Shown: positions 56,026 to 64,000 of the stretch, in pieces
Numbering within the stretch: position 1 is the first letter of the stretch
Layout of the letters: every line of letters begins with the position of its first letter
Assembly: GCF_900129815.1 (NCBI RefSeq)
Contig: NZ_FQWX01000013.1
Span: 1-64,000 of the forward strand
Length of the DNA stretch: 64,000 nucleotides
Direction: 5' to 3'
DNA from: Asaccharospora irregularis DSM 2635
Lineage (GTDB): Bacteria; Bacillota; Clostridia; Peptostreptococcales; Peptostreptococcaceae
Notes under the pieces: generated by a model
The model's database searches: none
Seen by the model: the letters and a program-made list of their open reading frames with translations, nothing else
What the model was told of the DNA's origin: nothing
Translations under genes and position numbers: made by a program

Positions 56026-57255
56026 TTAGCAATCACAATGTTTGTCTCTACAATTTTTTCTTTCTCTTCCTTCTTCTCTACTATTAGGTCCACATATTGG
56101 GAAATCACATATTTGAGAGAAAGTATCTACTACTCTTGGTTCAATTGGGTTTGCAGCTCCTAGAACAACTATTTGTTCACTTATAAGTGTACTAACAACT
56201 TCCTGTACACAAAGCACTACGTCTATATCATTTGGTATACATAGTTCGTATTCACAATCACAATTGCAACTTAAGAATGCCTTACCTATACAATCTACTG
56301 TTAGGTTAGTTTTGTACTCTTGTCTTAAAACTACTGATCTTCCATCAGAAGGTAAGCATATTGGTGCTGATAATGTATTGAATGTAAATTCAACATCATC
56401 AACTCTACATTTACAGCATCCATGTGATCTTTCCTTAACTGCTGGGTATGCTAATGCAACAAATTTTGTACATCCACATTTACCTCTTAATTCTAATACT
56501 AAATCTTCTACTGTTATTGTCAATCCTTTTTGTTTGTAAGAAACTGAAGTTCCTTTTCCTCTTCTGCAGCATTCGCTGTTTCTTTCTCCACATACATCAT
56601 ATTCAAATACAGTTTCACAGTTTCCTCCAACCATTGGTGTTGATGGATCTATATCAAAATCTTCTAAACTTGTTACCCCTGTATTTATTATTGTACCTGT
56701 ACTATTTACACATACTTTTTCTATAGTTACATTAACTTGACCTGATTTTGGAACAGGTCCATTAACTTCTACTACTTCTATATCAAAAGTTAATGGCTCT
56801 CCATTTGGAGCTGTTGCATCAGTAAATACTTGGAATGCCATAGTGTCAAAAACTCTGTTTGTCTCGATTGCATATGGTATGCTATTAGATGTTGATAGCT
56901 TTTGAGGAGTTATAGGGCTACAACATTCTGGACCACACTTATTATCAAAACAATTCTCTGCTGATTCTACTCCACATGGTTCACAGTCATCATGTTTAGG
57001 TTTGCAGTTGCATATTGTACATTCATAAACTTGGCAATCACTATGCCCATGATCACAACCACAATTATCATGGTGATGATGATGTTCATGATTGCATTCA
57101 CAACTATCTCCATGGTGATGTTTGGATTTATTTACTCCTCTTGACATATCTTCTTCTAATACTTCTTCTAATACTTCTTCAGTACTAACACTATCTTCAA
57201 CTGGTTCAACTTGTTTGTTCATAACTTTTCTTCTATTTTTTTTAAGATCTTGCAT
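56026..57255 (-). CDS. cdeC: CdeC-like cysteine-rich exosporium protein
   Basis: 409 residues. It opens MQDLKKNRRKVMNK, has a His-rich block (EHHHHHDNCGCDHG) near residue 60 and very many Cys, often paired (CCRRG, CCKC, CDC). C. difficile CdeC is about 405 residues with a KKNKRR-type start, a His-rich segment and about nine percent Cys, and organises the exosporium; the match is close. The N-terminal 130 residues are variable, then a repeated beta-sandwich-like part follows. Probably transcribed in the mother cell late in sporulation. GGGGAGG precedes the ATG. Confidence 0.8.
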   Translation of the reverse strand: MQDLKKNRRKVMNKQVEPVEDSVSTEEVLEEVLEEDMSRGVNKSKHHHGDSCECNHEHHHHHDNCGCDHGHSDCQVYECTICNCKPKHDDCEPCGVESAENCFDNKCGPECCSPITPQKLSTSNSIPYAIETNRVFDTMAFQVFTDATAPNGEPLTFDIEVVEVNGPVPKSGQVNVTIEKVCVNSTGTIINTGVTSLEDFDIDPSTPMVGGNCETVFEYDVCGERNSECCRRGKGTSVSYKQKGLTITVEDLVLELRGKCGCTKFVALAYPAVKERSHGCCKCRVDDVEFTFNTLSAPICLPSDGRSVVLRQEYKTNLTVDCIGKAFLSCNCDCEYELCIPNDIDVVLCVQEVVSTLISEQIVVLGAANPIEPRVVDTFSQICDFPICGPNSREEGRERKNCRDKHCDC

Positions 57256-57427: not shown

Positions 57428-58441
57428 ATGAGTTTTTTTAATAATTGCTCAACTATTATAAGACGTTCAAACAAAGATATGTTTTTCATAAGATTAGAAG
57501 ATGGCATAACGTTTGATTATTTTAACTGTGAAAATGAGTTGGTATCATCCCAAAAAATTTTTCCAAAGACAAATATTGATTTTACAAATTTTTACATATC
57601 ATTAGATAAAGATGATAATATATACGGTATATATAACGATGAATCTCTTTTTATGATTGAAATTCCTAAAGATTCTACTAAGGTTTCTAGTAAGGAAATT
57701 TTGAGTTATGACAATGAAAAGTTCGATATATCATTTCCTTATATAAAGTGTCTAGATGACTCTACACATATACTCTATTATGTTTATGATACCAATTACT
57801 CTAATGCCTGCGCACTATTTCATCACTACAAACAAAGAGATTGCTGGATAGAAAACAAAATAGACTTTATAGACAACATACTATTAGATGATTTTTCTGT
57901 TATATCTAATCAAAATTCTTTGGTAGTATTTTATTTTAAATTAGTAGACTATCATGAAGAGTTATTTTTTTCTCAGTTTAATTCTAGTAATTTAACATGG
58001 TCAAAGCCTATACAGATTACAAATTCAGGAAATAATAAGGTTTATCTCTCTATCCTGAAAGACAGTATGAATTTCTATCATATAAGCTTCTGTGAAAAAA
58101 TAGACTCTGGATATGTAGTTAGATACATAAACGGCTATTTAAATGAAGGTAGCTTCGATATAGAGATTTCTAATTCCCTAACAAAACCGTCTACCTGTAT
58201 GTATCCTAGTTTATTAAAAAAAGGTTCTATAACTTATGTAATGTGGGTTGATTTTGGAAGGCTTAATACTAGTATATCCTACGATTTAGGAAAAACATGG
58301 TCAAACCAAAAAACAGATGAATTCAGCGTAGAAGATGACTTCGTAAGAGCTAGATTTATATCAAATTACAAAGATGATCTTCCATATAATGCAAGCTGTA
58401 TATTTACTACATCATCAGCTGTTGAAATACTAGGTTTTTAA
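57428..58441 (+). CDS. Beta-propeller-like protein with an Asp-box
   Basis: 337 residues without signal peptide. The motif SYDLGKTWS at about 293-301 is a BNR/Asp-box of the sialidase type, and TWSKPIQITNSG is a second, weaker copy. Repeated strand patterns fit a six-bladed propeller. Catalytic residues of sialidases are not evident, so a structural or binding role is more likely. It is divergent from cdeC, sharing a 170-base upstream region, which suggests joint sporulation control. Confidence 0.65.
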   Translation: MSFFNNCSTIIRRSNKDMFFIRLEDGITFDYFNCENELVSSQKIFPKTNIDFTNFYISLDKDDNIYGIYNDESLFMIEIPKDSTKVSSKEILSYDNEKFDISFPYIKCLDDSTHILYYVYDTNYSNACALFHHYKQRDCWIENKIDFIDNILLDDFSVISNQNSLVVFYFKLVDYHEELFFSQFNSSNLTWSKPIQITNSGNNKVYLSILKDSMNFYHISFCEKIDSGYVVRYINGYLNEGSFDIEISNSLTKPSTCMYPSLLKKGSITYVMWVDFGRLNTSISYDLGKTWSNQKTDEFSVEDDFVRARFISNYKDDLPYNASCIFTTSSAVEILGF

Positions 58442-58523: not shown

Positions 58524-58708
58524 AAAATATCCCGAAACACCGTTGAGCTGTATAAATTCATACCCGAGATACTCCCAGGTGGGTGATCTGTTAGTAGTTT
58601 TTAACGTCCTAACAAAGTAGGCATGTTATAATCCACTAAACACAATCTCCCGTATAACATTTGTCGGTTGAATTTAAACAAGCTTCATCGCATGCTTCAG
58701 GATTTCAT
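58524..58708 (-). ncRNA. ssrS: 6S RNA
   Basis: About 185 bases with no frame, GC-richer than its surroundings. The ends ATCCTGAAGC and GTTTCGGGAT form the closing stem, and AGCTTGT/ACAGCT plus AAATTCA/TGAATTT form the next stem. Near the 3' end ATACAGC, a short gap and CGGTGTTTCGGGA line up with TTACAGC and CGGCATCTCGGAGA of E. coli 6S RNA, and GTTAAAAACT and CACC blocks occur in the same order. A promoter precedes it and a terminator follows. 6S RNA binds the SigA polymerase in stationary phase. Confidence 0.7.
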
Positions 58709-58861: not shown

Positions 58862-59716
58862 TTAATTTTCTTTGGAATTATCTTCCTCATCATCTTCATA
58901 ATCCTCGTATTCTATATATTCATACTCGTATTCATATTCAACATCTTCACCTTCGCCGTCATCTTCATCATTATACTCCTCATCTTCGTATTCACCATAG
59001 TATTCATATTCATCATCTTCATAATCCTCATAAGTATCCTCTCCTCTTAGGAGACTTCCTAATAATTTAAGGTTATTTGCACTTCCTAAGTTATTTATAC
59101 TAGCTAGTGAACTTAAACTAAATCCTCCCTCTCCAAAATCATCTGGTAAAAATAGTTCTGCGAATAATTCAATTTTCTTTTTCATATCAATAGCCTTTTC
59201 AATTGATTCTTTTCTTTTTTCAGGGAATACTTCTAATATTTCTTTTATCATCATATTTTTTTTATCTTCTTCATCCATACTCCTAAAGAAATTACTTTCC
59301 TCATAATCTATTGTATCAATATTACTAAGCTTTTTGATCCCCTTTACCAAATCCAATAGGCTTTCTACTTTTATCAATATCTTTTTTTCATCAGGAGACA
59401 TATATTTTTTGGTCCTTACTATTATATCCATACCGCGCTCCAAATCATCATCGCTTAAATCCATCAATTTAATACCTCTATTTATATCGTTCATATTAAA
59501 TTTAATCATATTATCACTATCCCCTTTTAAATCCTTACTTTTTCGTTTTGATTTCTTATTGATTTTCTTGGGATTTGAACTGCTTTTCTCACTCTGATTA
59601 CCTTTAGGTTTTTTCTTTTTTACTTTCTTAGGTACAGATTTATTTTTATTATCAAATAATGATATATTTCCATTACTTAACGCAATCATTCCGATTATCA
59701 ACAATAGGTTATTCAA
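58862..59716 (-). CDS. Charge-segregated protein: basic N-terminal part, Asp/Glu/Tyr-rich tail
   Basis: 284 residues. Hydrophobic first 20 residues (signal or anchor), then a Lys-rich block at about 25-65, a helical middle (MDLSDDDLERGMDIIVRTKK) and a final 60 residues made almost only of Asp, Glu and Tyr. I know no family. Such tails bind cations or coat components; the location between cdeC and ccpA suggests a spore-coat or cortex protein, as inference only. Confidence 0.6.
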   Translation of the reverse strand: MNNLLLIIGMIALSNGNISLFDNKNKSVPKKVKKKKPKGNQSEKSSSNPKKINKKSKRKSKDLKGDSDNMIKFNMNDINRGIKLMDLSDDDLERGMDIIVRTKKYMSPDEKKILIKVESLLDLVKGIKKLSNIDTIDYEESNFFRSMDEEDKKNMMIKEILEVFPEKRKESIEKAIDMKKKIELFAELFLPDDFGEGGFSLSSLASINNLGSANNLKLLGSLLRGEDTYEDYEDDEYEYYGEYEDEEYNDEDDGEGEDVEYEYEYEYIEYEDYEDDEEDNSKEN

Positions 59717-59924: not shown

Positions 59925-60242
59925 ATGAAAAAAATAGATACCGATTCTTTAGAAAAAATGGCCAAACAAAAAAATATAGATAAAGATAAAATTGAGAAAA
60001 TAGCTGATAACTATAAGGGTAAATCTGAAAGTGAATTGATGGATGAACTAATTAAAATAGGTAAAAATTTGGAAGGACGCGAGGAAGTCGTTTCAAAATT
60101 TAAAGCATTTTTAGATGAAGATCAAAAGAAAAAGTTGGATTTTATTATGAATAAAATTTCAAATGCAGAGGTAGAAAGCAAGATAAAAGAAAAAAAATCT
60201 GGTAAAAAAGTTAAAAAGGTCGTTAAAAAGGTAAAAAAATAA
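59925..60242 (+). CDS. Small helical protein with poly-basic tail
   Basis: 105 residues, helical throughout. SLEKMAKQKNIDKDKIEKIA and a SESELMDELIKIGKNL helix precede FLDEDQKKKLDFIMNKI, which resembles the middle of the neighbouring charge-segregated protein. The end is a run of Lys/Val repeats (KKVVKKVKK). No named family. AAAGGAG lies before the ATG, and a strong palindrome ends the transcript. Confidence 0.65.
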   Translation: MKKIDTDSLEKMAKQKNIDKDKIEKIADNYKGKSESELMDELIKIGKNLEGREEVVSKFKAFLDEDQKKKLDFIMNKISNAEVESKIKEKKSGKKVKKVVKKVKK

Positions 60243-60264
60243 GGAGTCATATGACTCCTTATTT
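60237..60264. terminator. Bidirectional terminator between the small helical gene and ccpA
   Basis: Perfect palindrome centred on 60250/60251 (AAGGAGTCAT and complement) with A-rich and T-rich flanks. It overlaps the stops of both convergent genes. Confidence 0.85.
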
Positions 60265-61272
60265 TCTTTCTATAACACTTTCTCTGTCTATAATCTTATA
60301 TGGCAATTCCACTTTTTTATTATCTAATATTTCCTTATTTATTAATTTTATTACCATTCTTATAGCTACAGCTCCCATATCATATAGAGGTTGATGAACA
60401 GTAGTTAATTTAGGCTTATACATTTTTGCAATCTTAACATCATTGAATCCTGCTACTGATATATCTTCTGGAACCCTATATCCTGCATCACATATAGCAT
60501 TAATTGCACCTATAGCAGCCTCATCACCTGTAACAAATGCAGCATGAGGTATTATTCCTTCATCTAATAATTCCTTCATACTTTGGTAACCATTTTCATA
60601 TTCTGTTCCACCATATTTAATAAGATTTTTATCTAGTTTTATATTATTTTGTTCAAGTGCTTCTTCATAACCTGCTAGTCTTTCCATTTCTAAGATAGTA
60701 TCATCTTTGCTTGTCATTATAAAAGCTATTTTTTCGTGGCCCTTATCTATTAGATACTTTGTCATATCAAAAGTTGCCTTTTTGTTGCTAGTACTAACCG
60801 TATATATATCATAATCCCTAGCCGTTTTACTTATATATGTAGCAGGTATACCGCAGTTTTGCATATAGTTTATATGCTCTTGTTCTACTATCCAAGATAT
60901 CATGACTATTCCTTCTACTTGTTTTGCTCTAAGTAGATTTATACTTTTTAACTCTTGTTCTTTATCAGAGTATGTATTTGCTAAAAGTATATCATAGTCA
61001 TACATCTTAGCAACTTCCTCTATACCATTTAAAATTTCGTTTACAAATGAATCCGACACCTCTGGCACTATAACTCCTATTAACTGGCTTTTCTTAGTTA
61101 CTAAGCTTCTAGCAAGTGGATTTGGTATGTATCCCGTTTCCTTTATAACATCTAAAACCTTTTGTTTTACTTCGTCCGTTACTGGTTTTGAGTCATTTAT
61201 AACTCTTGATACAGTAGATATAGAAACTCCTGCTTGTTTTGCAACATCTTTTATTGTTATGTTATTTTTCAA
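60259..61272 (-). CDS. ccpA: CcpA-like LacI-family regulator
   Basis: 337 residues. LacI helix-turn-helix ITIKDVAKQAGVSISTVSRV and hinge GYIPNPLARSL, then a periplasmic-binding-like domain (LIGVIVPEVSDSFVNEILNG, GFNDVKIAKMYKPKLTTVHQ). The hinge and the GFNDV and TTVHQP segments are as in CcpA, and ccpA lies near cdeC in C. difficile. The frame to TTG 61278 leaves three bases to AGGAGG; TTG 61272 leaves nine and gives MKNNITIKDVA. It should mediate catabolite repression with HPr. Confidence 0.82.
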   Translation of the reverse strand: MKNNITIKDVAKQAGVSISTVSRVINDSKPVTDEVKQKVLDVIKETGYIPNPLARSLVTKKSQLIGVIVPEVSDSFVNEILNGIEEVAKMYDYDILLANTYSDKEQELKSINLLRAKQVEGIVMISWIVEQEHINYMQNCGIPATYISKTARDYDIYTVSTSNKKATFDMTKYLIDKGHEKIAFIMTSKDDTILEMERLAGYEEALEQNNIKLDKNLIKYGGTEYENGYQSMKELLDEGIIPHAAFVTGDEAAIGAINAICDAGYRVPEDISVAGFNDVKIAKMYKPKLTTVHQPLYDMGAVAIRMVIKLINKEILDNKKVELPYKIIDRESVIERK

Positions 61273-61278
61273 GTACAA

Positions 61279-61511
61279 TTTCCTCCTTCTATTAATTCCT
61301 ATTTGTATTTTAACTTTTATCTATTTAATATAAAACTAGTTATCTGTTAAGTAAAATTATATTTTACCATAAATTTATATTCATATAAATACTATATAGA
61401 TTATATTCTTTATTTTTTATAGAAATATACGTTTATCCTCTTCTTAATTATATCCTTTATATTAATTTGTAAACTTTTTATATTAATTTATATATATCAC
61501 AAAAAACAATA
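61279..61511. other. Gap upstream of ccpA and the small-protein cluster
   Basis: AT-rich shared upstream region of ccpA (leftward) and the first small membrane protein gene (rightward). No gene seen. Promoter-like motif for the latter listed separately. Confidence 0.5.
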
Positions 61512-61538
61512 ACAATTTTTTATCTACTGCATACTATA
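61512..61538 (+). promoter_or_regulatory. Candidate mother-cell (SigK-like) promoter
   Basis: AC at 61512, 16 bases, then CATACTATA at 61530, matching the usual AC-N16-CATANNNTA form of SigK promoters. The ATG is 69 bases further on. Confidence 0.45.
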
Positions 61539-61606
61539 TTATGGGAATATTACACGACAACTTTGTACTTACATAAATAATTCATTATTAAAGGGGGATT
61601 TTTTTT

Positions 61607-61828
61607 ATGAATAATAAGTTTGGAAGGGTTTTTGACTGTTTCGGTAACAGTGGTTGGTGGATTATAGTTTTATTCTTTTTATTCTTGGCATTTCAAGAAT
61701 GCTGGAATGAAATATGTATAACTGATTGGATTCCTTTTTTAATACTACTATTAATAGTGTGTTCATGTTCTAGTGGATTTGACGGAAGCTGCGGATGTTT
61801 TGATAACAATTATGATTGCGGTTGCTAG
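61607..61828 (+). CDS. Small two-helix membrane protein with Cys-rich tail, member A
   Basis: 73 residues. Short N-terminus with FGRVFDCFG, Trp pair, helix one (IIVLFFLFLAF), acidic turn (ECWNEICITDW), helix two (IPFLILLLIVCSC) and a tail with Cys and Asp (DGSCGCFDNNYDCGC). Same design as four neighbours. AAAGGGGGA precedes ATG 61607. No named family that I am sure of; the location beside ccpA/cdeC suggests a spore-coat or exosporium protein. Confidence 0.75.
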   Translation: MNNKFGRVFDCFGNSGWWIIVLFFLFLAFQECWNEICITDWIPFLILLLIVCSCSSGFDGSCGCFDNNYDCGC

Positions 61829-61893
61829 TATAAAAATCACTAAAAAAATTTTCATAACAGGTACGAAAGTATTATCAAAATTCACTTAACTAG

Positions 61894-61902
61894 CATAGTA
61901 TA
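61894..61902 (+). promoter_or_regulatory. CATAGTATA motif before member B
   Basis: Matches the SigK -10 pattern CATANNNTA, 52 bases before ATG 61954. A good -35 AC at the right distance is not seen. Confidence 0.3.
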
Positions 61903-61953
61903 TCTTAAGAGCGAAAGCTCAATAAATTAAATATCAACAGGAGGTAACGTACT

Positions 61954-62133
61954 ATGCTAGATAGATTTTTCGGTGATGATGGATTTTTTGGAGCAGGAGC
62001 ATGGTGGATAATAGTATTATTCTTCTTATTCCTAGCTTTTGGTGAGAGTTGGGTAGACATAGACATAATGGCTTGGATACCTTTCTTGATAATATTATTA
62101 ATACTTTGTAGCTGTGGTGGATGTTTAGATTAG
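61954..62133 (+). CDS. Small two-helix membrane protein with Cys-rich tail, member B (59 residues)
   Basis: ATG 61954 follows AGGAGG at 61939; stop TAG 62131-62133. The protein starts MLDRFFGDDGFFGAGAWW, has two membrane helices with an ESWVDIDIMAW turn, and ends CSCGGCLD. It is almost identical to member C over its first 50 residues, also at the DNA level, so the two arose by a recent duplication. Its 59 codons put it below common gene-length cutoffs. Confidence 0.85.
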   Translation: MLDRFFGDDGFFGAGAWWIIVLFFLFLAFGESWVDIDIMAWIPFLIILLILCSCGGCLD

Positions 62134-62250
62134 GGTAACAAAATATATATAATCTCATATAATATAACATACTAAAAGTATTTTAACTAATCATCAGTTA
62201 AGGGTTAGAACTATAATTTAAATCAATTTTATTAAGGGGAGGACTTAATT

Positions 62251-62451
62251 ATGCTAAGTAGATTTTTTGGTGAAGATGGATTCTTCGGAGCAGGAGCATG
62301 GTGGATAATAGTATTATTCTTCTTATTCCTAGCTTTCGGTGAAAGTTGGGTAGACATAGATATAATGGCTTGGATACCTTTCTTAATATTATTATTAATA
62401 ACTTGTTCATGCGCTGGATTCTTTGAAGATGACGGATGTGGATGCTGCTAA
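62251..62451 (+). CDS. Small two-helix membrane protein with Cys-rich tail, member C
   Basis: 66 residues, starting MLSRFFGEDGFFGAGAWW. Helices, turn and sequence as in member B, but the tail is longer and more Cys/Asp-rich (FFEDDGCGCC). The difference is confined to the C-terminus, so tail variation after duplication is likely. AAGGGGAGG precedes the ATG. Confidence 0.82.
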   Translation: MLSRFFGEDGFFGAGAWWIIVLFFLFLAFGESWVDIDIMAWIPFLILLLITCSCAGFFEDDGCGCC

Positions 62452-62483
62452 TATATAAATATATCTAAGATTAGTAGATATTC

Positions 62484-62521
62484 AAAAGGTGTTGGTTATA
62501 TTCCAACACCTTTTGTTTTTT
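62484..62521 (+). terminator. Terminator after member C
   Basis: AAAAGGTGTTGG and CCAACACCTTTT pair with a seven-base loop, then a T-run. Confidence 0.9.
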
Positions 62522-62527
62522 TATATA

Positions 62528-62590
62528 ATAATGGAACTAAAGAATAGGCAATTAAAAATCTTTGCCTATCCCCTAGTTCCATTATTTTTT
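62528..62590. terminator. Long hairpin after member D
   Basis: ATGGAACTA...AATAGGCAA pairs with TTGCCTAT...TAGTTCCAT over an interrupted stem. The T-run follows on the plus strand; on the minus strand it sits behind the stop at 62614 and probably ends that gene too. Confidence 0.6.
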
Positions 62591-62613
62591 AACTAATTGT
62601 TTATATACTATAA

Positions 62614-62829
62614 TTAGCAACAACAACCATCATCAAAGCTAGTTAAAAGAAGTATTATTAGTACTATCCATATTAATGCCATGTCATCACAAAATAGCCA
62701 CTGTATTATATCTTCTCCTAGTGCAAGAATTGCCACTATTATAATTAGCACTATGAACCCAGGCCCAAATAGATCTTTGTTGCATGGTCCACATCCAAAA
62801 AATCTTGACAGTTTATTCTCATTTGACAT
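62614..62829 (-). CDS. Small two-helix membrane protein with Cys-rich tail, member D
   Basis: 71 residues. KLSRFFGCGPCNKDLFGPG replaces the usual start and carries two extra Cys. Helix one (FIVLIIIVAILAL), acidic turn with Trp (GEDIIQWLFCDD), helix two and the tail DDGCCC. It runs opposite to A-C and diverges from them, but the SRFFG and DDGCCC ends identify it as family. GGGGGC precedes the ATG. Confidence 0.78.
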   Translation of the reverse strand: MSNENKLSRFFGCGPCNKDLFGPGFIVLIIIVAILALGEDIIQWLFCDDMALIWIVLIILLLTSFDDGCCC

Positions 62830-62972
62830 ATTTTTAGCCCCCTTATTTATTTTTTAGGTGTTTATTCTCCTATTTACTACATATTATGTAAATATAGTAA
62901 AAATGTTCCTGGATTTGTCCACATTTGACTTCTATAAATAAAGTTTATTCTTCTAAACTAATCTATTAACTC

Positions 62973-63006
62973 AAAAAAAAAGAAACCCCACAGGTCTCTT
63001 TTTTTG
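62973..63006 (-). terminator. Terminator of member E
   Basis: On the minus strand AAAAAAAGAGACC, TGTGG, GGTTTCTTTTTTTTT. Short stem with long A/T arms. Confidence 0.75.
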
Positions 63007-63036
63007 GATTAAGTTTTTATTATATAGATAGATCTA

Positions 63037-63240
63037 CTAGCAACAACAATCATCGAAATTAAATAATAATAATATCACTAATATAACCCATACCCAGGCG
63101 TTTTCATCTTCCAAGAAAACTTCTAAAATATCTGTACATAATAGCAAGAATACTATGACTATTACTACCAACATCTTATTACCAAAAAGGCCATCATCTC
63201 CCCCCAAGAAACGTGATAAAGTATCTTCTAGTTTTGCCAT
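63037..63240 (-). CDS. Small two-helix membrane protein with Cys-rich tail, member E
   Basis: 67 residues. TLSRFLGGDDGLFG at the start, helix one, acidic turn (TDILEVFLEDENAW), helix two, and the tail FNFDDCCC. The overall plan equals member D. GGGGGGAAGG precedes the ATG at 63240. Confidence 0.78.
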   Translation of the reverse strand: MAKLEDTLSRFLGGDDGLFGNKMLVVIVIVFLLLCTDILEVFLEDENAWVWVILVILLLFNFDDCCC

Positions 63241-63284: not shown

Positions 63285-63767
63285 CTAAATATATGCTTTA
63301 TTAAATAAATAAGTTACCTCTAACCCCTTAGCTTGTTGTGTACGAACTTGCCTATTAGATGGTCTGGATAGAATAGAAACAAATTTTTTATTTATTAATC
63401 CCTCTAATTCATCATCACCTAATTTACTATATAGATTAAAGTCATTTAAATATTTATCTTCATTCTTAGATATAGTCTTTATCAAACTATCTATAGATTT
63501 AATTTTGTATTCCTTATAATCACATACTAAAAATGATGTTTTACTACTTTTTATACCATCCTTAATTTTAACCAATCTATCTACATACTCTTTTTTATTT
63601 TTATCTATTTCTGAACTATTTTTTATTACCTCTTCTGAGATTATATTAATTTCCATAACATAATCCTCCATCTTTTGCATATCCAAAGTTATTGAGTTAT
63701 AATAAAAATTCACCAGCACTACTAAAGTAACACATATAGATGATACTAATAGTCCTACATACTTCAT
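63285..63767 (-). CDS. Membrane-anchored protein of unknown function
   Basis: 160 residues from ATG 63767 (AGGAGG six bases before); the frame to 63842 lacks a site. One N-terminal helix (MKYVGLLVSSICVTLVVLVN), then a charged helical, probably coiled-coil exterior part with Lys/Glu/Ile, ending with a Thr/Gln/Arg stretch. No family recognised. Confidence 0.65.
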   Translation of the reverse strand: MKYVGLLVSSICVTLVVLVNFYYNSITLDMQKMEDYVMEINIISEEVIKNSSEIDKNKKEYVDRLVKIKDGIKSSKTSFLVCDYKEYKIKSIDSLIKTISKNEDKYLNDFNLYSKLGDDELEGLINKKFVSILSRPSNRQVRTQQAKGLEVTYLFNKAYI

Positions 63768-63915: not shown

Positions 63916-64000
63916 ATGTTTGAAAGAATCAAAGAAATAATAGCAGAACAATTAGGATTAGACAATTTAGATGAGATAACTTTAGAAACATCTCTAATAG
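63916..64000 (+). CDS. acpP: Acyl carrier protein, cut by the window edge
   Basis: The first 28 residues begin MFERIKEIIAEQLGLDNLDE and continue ITLETSLI, the classical ACP N-terminus before the phosphopantetheine Ser (DSLD), which lies outside the window. AGGAGG is eight bases before ATG 63916. Confidence 0.85.
   Translation, partial: MFERIKEIIAEQLGLDNLDEITLETSLI

Follow-up and report, generated by a model that had tools for sequence, protein, structure and literature searches.

The window, by which we mean the whole 64,000-nucleotide stretch of Asaccharospora irregularis DNA that was analysed, holds near its end a cluster of five small genes, here called A to E. A first-pass annotation of the sequence had described five small two-helix ORFs with Cys-rich ends, and all are present, with A, B and C on the forward strand and D and E on the reverse strand. 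In each product, an acidic turn with Trp separates two hydrophobic stretches, and the end is rich in Cys. An RFFG-type start, described as shared, is of the (S/D)RFFG kind common to the cluster, with A deviating (NNKFGRVF). The Cys/Asp cluster ascribed to all five C-termini holds with respect to the Cys-rich ends; the tail of B carries Cys but a single Asp. B and C, reported as nearly identical up to the tail, do have the same hairpin core of 30 residues, without a single difference (96% identity in the DNA), followed by diverging tails. The coordinates of the cluster, its putative promoters and its neighbours are collected in Table 1.

Table 1. Features of the hairpin gene cluster and its surroundings. 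Positions refer to the window unless a contig is named.
Feature	Position	Strand	Description
A	61607-61828	+	73-aa Cys-tailed hairpin protein, type 1, long tail ...GFDGSCGCFDNNYDCGC
B	61954-62133	+	59 aa, type 1, short tail CSCGGCLD; counterpart of C. difficile CD1063.2
C	62251-62451	+	66 aa, type 1, tail CSCAGFFEDDGCGCC; counterpart of C. difficile CD1063.3
D	62614-62829	-	71 aa, type 2, tail SFDDGCCC; not in the C. difficile cluster
E	63037-63240	-	67 aa, type 2, tail NFDDCCC; counterpart of C. difficile CD1063.1
Terminator-like element after C	62483-62515	+	perfect 13-bp inverted repeat, then T run
Sigma-K-type promoter of A	61512-61537	+	AC-N16-CATACTAT, pattern match
-10-like element of B	61894-61901	+	CATAGTAT, no AC at the right distance
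Sigma-K-type promoter of C	62138-62163	+	AC-N16-CATATAAT
Sigma-K-type promoter of D	62881-62906	-	AC-N16-CATAATAT
Sigma-K-type promoter of E	63288-63314	-	AC-N17-CATATATT
LacI/CcpA-type regulator	60259-61278	-	CD1064 position; consistently next to the cluster
CotL homologue (C. difficile CD1065, lysine-rich morphogenetic coat protein)	59925-60242	+	84.5% identity over 84 aa to the gene in the corresponding place in C. difficile
CD1066-position protein	58862-59716	-	acidic C-terminus, AC-N17-CATA promoter
CdeC, Cys-rich exosporium morphogenetic protein	56026-57255	-	NCBIfam NF052417, 551.8 bits; AC-N17-CATATTAT promoter
Sixth member	contig C27 64178-64393 (L079:1679-1894)		71 aa, tail DDGCCC, divergent type 2
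Solo copy in the same genome	C29:28273		other contig, beside DUF1846-type gene

A profile built from the five proteins finds each of them again in their own genome, with E values of 1e-18 to 1e-33. They fall into two related types: type 1 (A, B and C), with the pattern WW-II-LFFLFLAF...WIPFLI-LLI-CSC, and type 2 (D and E), in which the first helix is longer and the end is FDDGCCC-like. The profiles of the two types match each other with 96.9% probability (E = 1.6e-10), a match to be read with caution, as both are hydrophobic. No model in Pfam or NCBIfam covers this family, to which we refer as the hairpin family, and the PDB holds no credible solved-structure relative. Weak Pfam matches to DUF3093, DUF2933, CLN6 and LMP2 were inconsistent and mostly below the cut-off, and were set aside as low-complexity hydrophobic matches. 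YjcZ-type, SpoVM and holin families in Pfam were likewise unmatched, with only scattered sub-threshold or isolated unrelated hits, and the NCBIfam model of CdeC did not match A to E. The profile search revealed two more members in the same genome, both outside the window. One lies less than 0.2 kb beyond the window end, past a gene starting at 63916 that we take to encode an acyl carrier protein; the other is a solo copy beside a gene that, again by our own reading of the sequence, is of the DUF1846 type. The latter neighbourhood is conserved as another site of the family, with a solo copy in the present genome as well as in the C. difficile-like G016 (L080:6274-6471, L081:5258-5449).

The Cys-rich exosporium protein that the annotation placed nearby is CdeC, which lies 4.4 kb from the cluster. 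The LacI/CcpA-like regulator is 76-91% identical across genera and is devoid of a sigma-K-type promoter. A 6S RNA (RF00013, 87.5 bits) is found at 58525-58706 on the reverse strand, between the CD1066-position gene and an ORF at 57428-58441. This ORF, divergent to cdeC, codes for a 337-residue protein with no family match; a homologue occupies the same place in three further loci (L042, L043 and L068) and was not seen there in the C. difficile locus (L038).

The genes of L038, the C. difficile locus, are, in order, a 141-codon gene, E, B, C, lacI, a 146-codon gene, a 305-codon gene and cdeC, with the 146 codons counted from an internal ATG of a listed 194-codon ORF. Since the 146-residue product fits CD1065 (CotL) as described (PMC6232153), and from the order, number and lengths of the genes, by which the CD tags were assigned, the E-B-C cluster of L038 corresponds to CD1063.1-CD1063.2-CD1063.3. 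E, B and C of the window, matched in order and 69-81% identical to these proteins, are thus their counterparts. Both sets lie between a CD1063-type gene and lacI and have the same promoter type, but the C. difficile cluster is without A and D and its genes are all co-directional, in contrast with the inverted A-B-C block of the window. CD1063.1 to CD1063.3 (alias CD1063A-C) figure in the literature found as "conserved hypothetical proteins"; we found no functional study of them in the open-access literature and no name, family model or mutant for the hairpin family in the literature searched. CD1063.1 is a membrane protein by BUSCA prediction, and its expression increases about 4-fold upon overexpression of WalR D54E, not of wild-type WalR, in C. 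difficile (PMC9210968).

Promoters were sought in the 150 bases before each gene with the pattern AC-N14-18-CATANNNT, modelled on the published C. difficile sigma-K elements, AC and CATATAAT. In the window, the full pattern precedes A, C, D, E, cdeC and the CD1066-position gene, and upstream of both B and its C. difficile counterpart CD1063.2 a similar -10 element is present, with the AC missing at the right spacing. Over all loci, the pattern was found upstream of 116 of 167 family genes as compared to 43 of 450 long ORFs taken from those loci, counts that come from related sequences and are thus not independent; a Markov-generated control gave 8.0 matches (s.d. 2.8), with no more than 16 in any of 200 trials. 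Among the AC-CATA spacings, 15-17 stand out as a sharp peak, with 32, 34 and 59 counts where most other spacings have 2-17, and no comparable peak at these distances was seen with the sigma-E-type ATA.

The sigma-K regulon of C. difficile includes CD1063.1, CD1063.2-CD1063.3, CD1065 and CD1067 (CdeC); in sigK mutants CD1063.1, CD1063.2 and CD1063.3 are at 0.21, 0.04 and 0.04 of the wild type, respectively, and CD1063.1 and CD1063.2-CD1063.3 are also down in sigE mutants (PMC3789822). The spore proteome includes CD1063.1 and CD1067, whereas CD1063.2 and CD1063.3 were not reported there (PMC3789822). B and C have a single tryptic site (R4) and A has two near its start, the remainder being a hydrophobic peptide of 55-66 residues; tryptic peptides of 7 and 12 residues arise from E and CD1063.1. 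Judging from the sequences, E (CD1063.1) should be within reach of standard tryptic proteomics, which A, B and C should escape. As no usable tryptic peptide would be available, the absence of CD1063.2 and CD1063.3 from the spore proteome should not count against a spore location, and the view of the first-pass annotation that absence from spores would refute a spore role is, for the same reason, unsafe when applied to proteomics of A, B and C. This also suggests why the family may have been overlooked.

The annotation had further proposed a search for copies in relatives. We searched 61 genomes (that of the present strain and 60 relatives) and found relatives of the hairpin proteins in 29 other genomes of the Peptostreptococcaceae. 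Within this family of bacteria, the proteins occur in 30 of 30 spoIVA+ genomes, with best E values of at most 4e-13, and in none of 7 spoIVA- genomes (Fisher p = 1e-7, uncorrected for kinship). In the same search they were absent from other families of the order, even from spoIVA+ genomes. Across 290 other genomes of the class there were just four matches, fragmentary and, near 1e-3, at chance level. Among the genomes searched, the hairpin family was thus found only in the Peptostreptococcaceae, the named genera with matches being Clostridioides, Romboutsia, Paraclostridium, Intestinibacter, Terrisporobacter and Metaclostridioides and their relatives. The hairpin core is under purifying selection, with a dN/dS of 0-0.16 for C against its relatives, which together with the presence of relatives in 29 other genomes places the family far beyond chance. 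It is a real, conserved and overlooked family, of which the C. difficile members are known but uncharacterised. Its assignment to the spore is well supported by the sigma-K regulon data, the promoters and the co-occurrence with spoIVA; these, along with the detection of CD1063.1 in the spore proteome, support the spore part of the interpretation put forward from the sequence alone, and we regard a role of the family in the spore as very probable.

How might these proteins act? Lys and Arg are nearly confined to the N-terminus, and the turn and the tail are acidic: in 123 type-1 proteins, the loops have 426 acidic and 6 basic residues, and the tails 282 acidic and 5 basic residues with 247 Cys. 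Under the positive-inside rule, the two termini would lie towards the mother-cell cytoplasm, the compartment of coat assembly; hydropathy and charge are in keeping with two membrane-spanning helices. AlphaFold models, of low confidence (pLDDT 65, pTM 0.36-0.40), place helices at residues 17-28 and 38-55 of C and at 22-34, 36-43 and 48-65 of E; the first helix of C, of only about 12-14 residues, is short for a full membrane span. From genus to genus the tails remain true to type, CSCGGCLE-like in B and TCSCGGFFDDGCGC-like in C, and the cores of B and C can be nearly identical within one genome while their tails differ. The terminal Cys cluster is missing from a few members, among them the D-like ones of L048, L052 and L053.

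The reading that we favour, with a probability of roughly 0.45, is that of a sporulation family of the Peptostreptococcaceae that anchors the coat to a membrane, the predicted hairpins lying in the outer forespore membrane or at the base of the coat with their Cys tails facing the coat. The mother cell would make the A-E-type proteins under sigma-K, late in sporulation, as part of the spore-surface locus of CotL, joined in a derived clade by CdeC. Each protein would insert into the outer forespore membrane as a helical hairpin, with both termini on the mother-cell side, the acidic turn on the far side and the Cys/Asp tail pointing at the assembling coat. During late maturation the tails may be joined to coat or exosporium proteins by disulfides, or by metal; either form of crosslinking, already suggested by the first-pass annotation, is a plausible candidate use of the tails. 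That the paralogues share nearly one hairpin and differ in their tails suggests a single membrane anchor with several partner-specific ends.

The short first helix of C makes a peripheral or coat-embedded location a serious rival. The proteins could be structural parts of the coat or exosporium rather than of a membrane, a hydrophobic, Cys-tailed and disulfide-linked filler that co-assembles with coat proteins as other small spore-coat peptides do. The spore association of CD1063.1 and the sigma-K timing fit this alternative equally well, and the Cys tails and the CdeC/CotL neighbourhood are in line with it. It has more difficulty with the two strongly hydrophobic segments and the membrane-like charge asymmetry of nearly all members, and we consider it possible, if rather unlikely.

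A narrower form of anchoring, in which the Cys tails serve a CdeC-bearing exosporium layer through CdeC-specific crosslinking, was implied by the annotation. CdeC is truly a neighbour and is co-regulated, and strong D/E-type members (E<1e-15) are found in 25 of 25 CdeC+ genomes and in none of the 5 CdeC- spoIVA+ genomes. However, in a SpoIVA tree rooted with one distant outgroup, these five spore formers without a recognisable CdeC occupy the two deepest branches, and all have type-1 members next to lacI, with CotL and CD1066-position homologues 8-23 kb from them. The link of the hairpin proteins to CotL thus predates a recognisable CdeC, or at least does not depend on one. The association of the D/E type with CdeC is moreover confounded by phylogeny, and a perfect tie between the two is weakened by a divergent D/E-like member in two of the five CdeC-less genomes. 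Anchors dedicated to CdeC are therefore improbable. The weakest alternative, late mother-cell membrane effectors, for example holin-like proteins that lyse the mother cell or small proteins that regulate a membrane enzyme, would suit small two-helix proteins present in several copies with sigma-K timing, but the detection of CD1063.1 in the spore proteome, the maintenance of paralogue-specific Cys/Asp tails and the lack of a match to holin or toxin families make it very unlikely.

Type-1 tails are longer and richer in Cys in the derived clade, with 10.5 residues and 2.1 Cys against 5.9 and 1.4 in the basal genomes. More speculatively, and doubtful as a whole, the proteins could form a lineage-specific coat-anchoring kit, in which one hairpin was duplicated and kept alike by gene conversion while different Cys tails recruit different partners; the kit would have existed with CotL before CdeC, and the CdeC exosporium would have been built onto it later. 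In the window, L021 and L041, B resembles the C of the same genome more closely than it does the B of any other, which is not so in most genomes. Strict conversion between B and C, suggestive in these three cases only, was rejected as a rule and is kept as a possibility.

CotL, a morphogenetic coat protein proposed to lie between the basement layer and the exosporium (PMC9542656), shares locus and sporulation timing with the hairpin family but is lysine-rich and unrelated in sequence. CdeC and CdeM are, like the hairpin proteins, Cys-rich, sigma-K controlled and at the spore surface, with CdeC in the same locus; they are larger, however, have no hydrophobic hairpin and no sequence relation to the family, and CdeC was not found in the basal hairpin-bearing genomes. 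The YjcZ family and SpoVM of Bacillus, the latter a single amphipathic helix, are also very small, membrane-associated proteins made in sporulation, but their sequences differ from those of the hairpin family. The solutions of Bacillus for tying coat and exosporium to the spore membrane are only partly conserved in C. difficile-type spores; SpoVM is reported to be largely dispensable there (PMC5607322). The hairpin family is present in every spoIVA+ Peptostreptococcaceae genome tested, is strongly sigma-K dependent in C. difficile and lies in the CotL-CdeC locus.

Lastly, the A-B-C block (61280-62610) lies in the opposite orientation to that expected from lacI, D and E, and the genes are co-directional in the other loci that show both lacI and the cluster. 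No clear inverted repeats flank the block, only AT-rich imperfect ones, and an invertible switch was rejected for want of convincing repeats. The orientation could reflect a fixed inversion or a matter of assembly.
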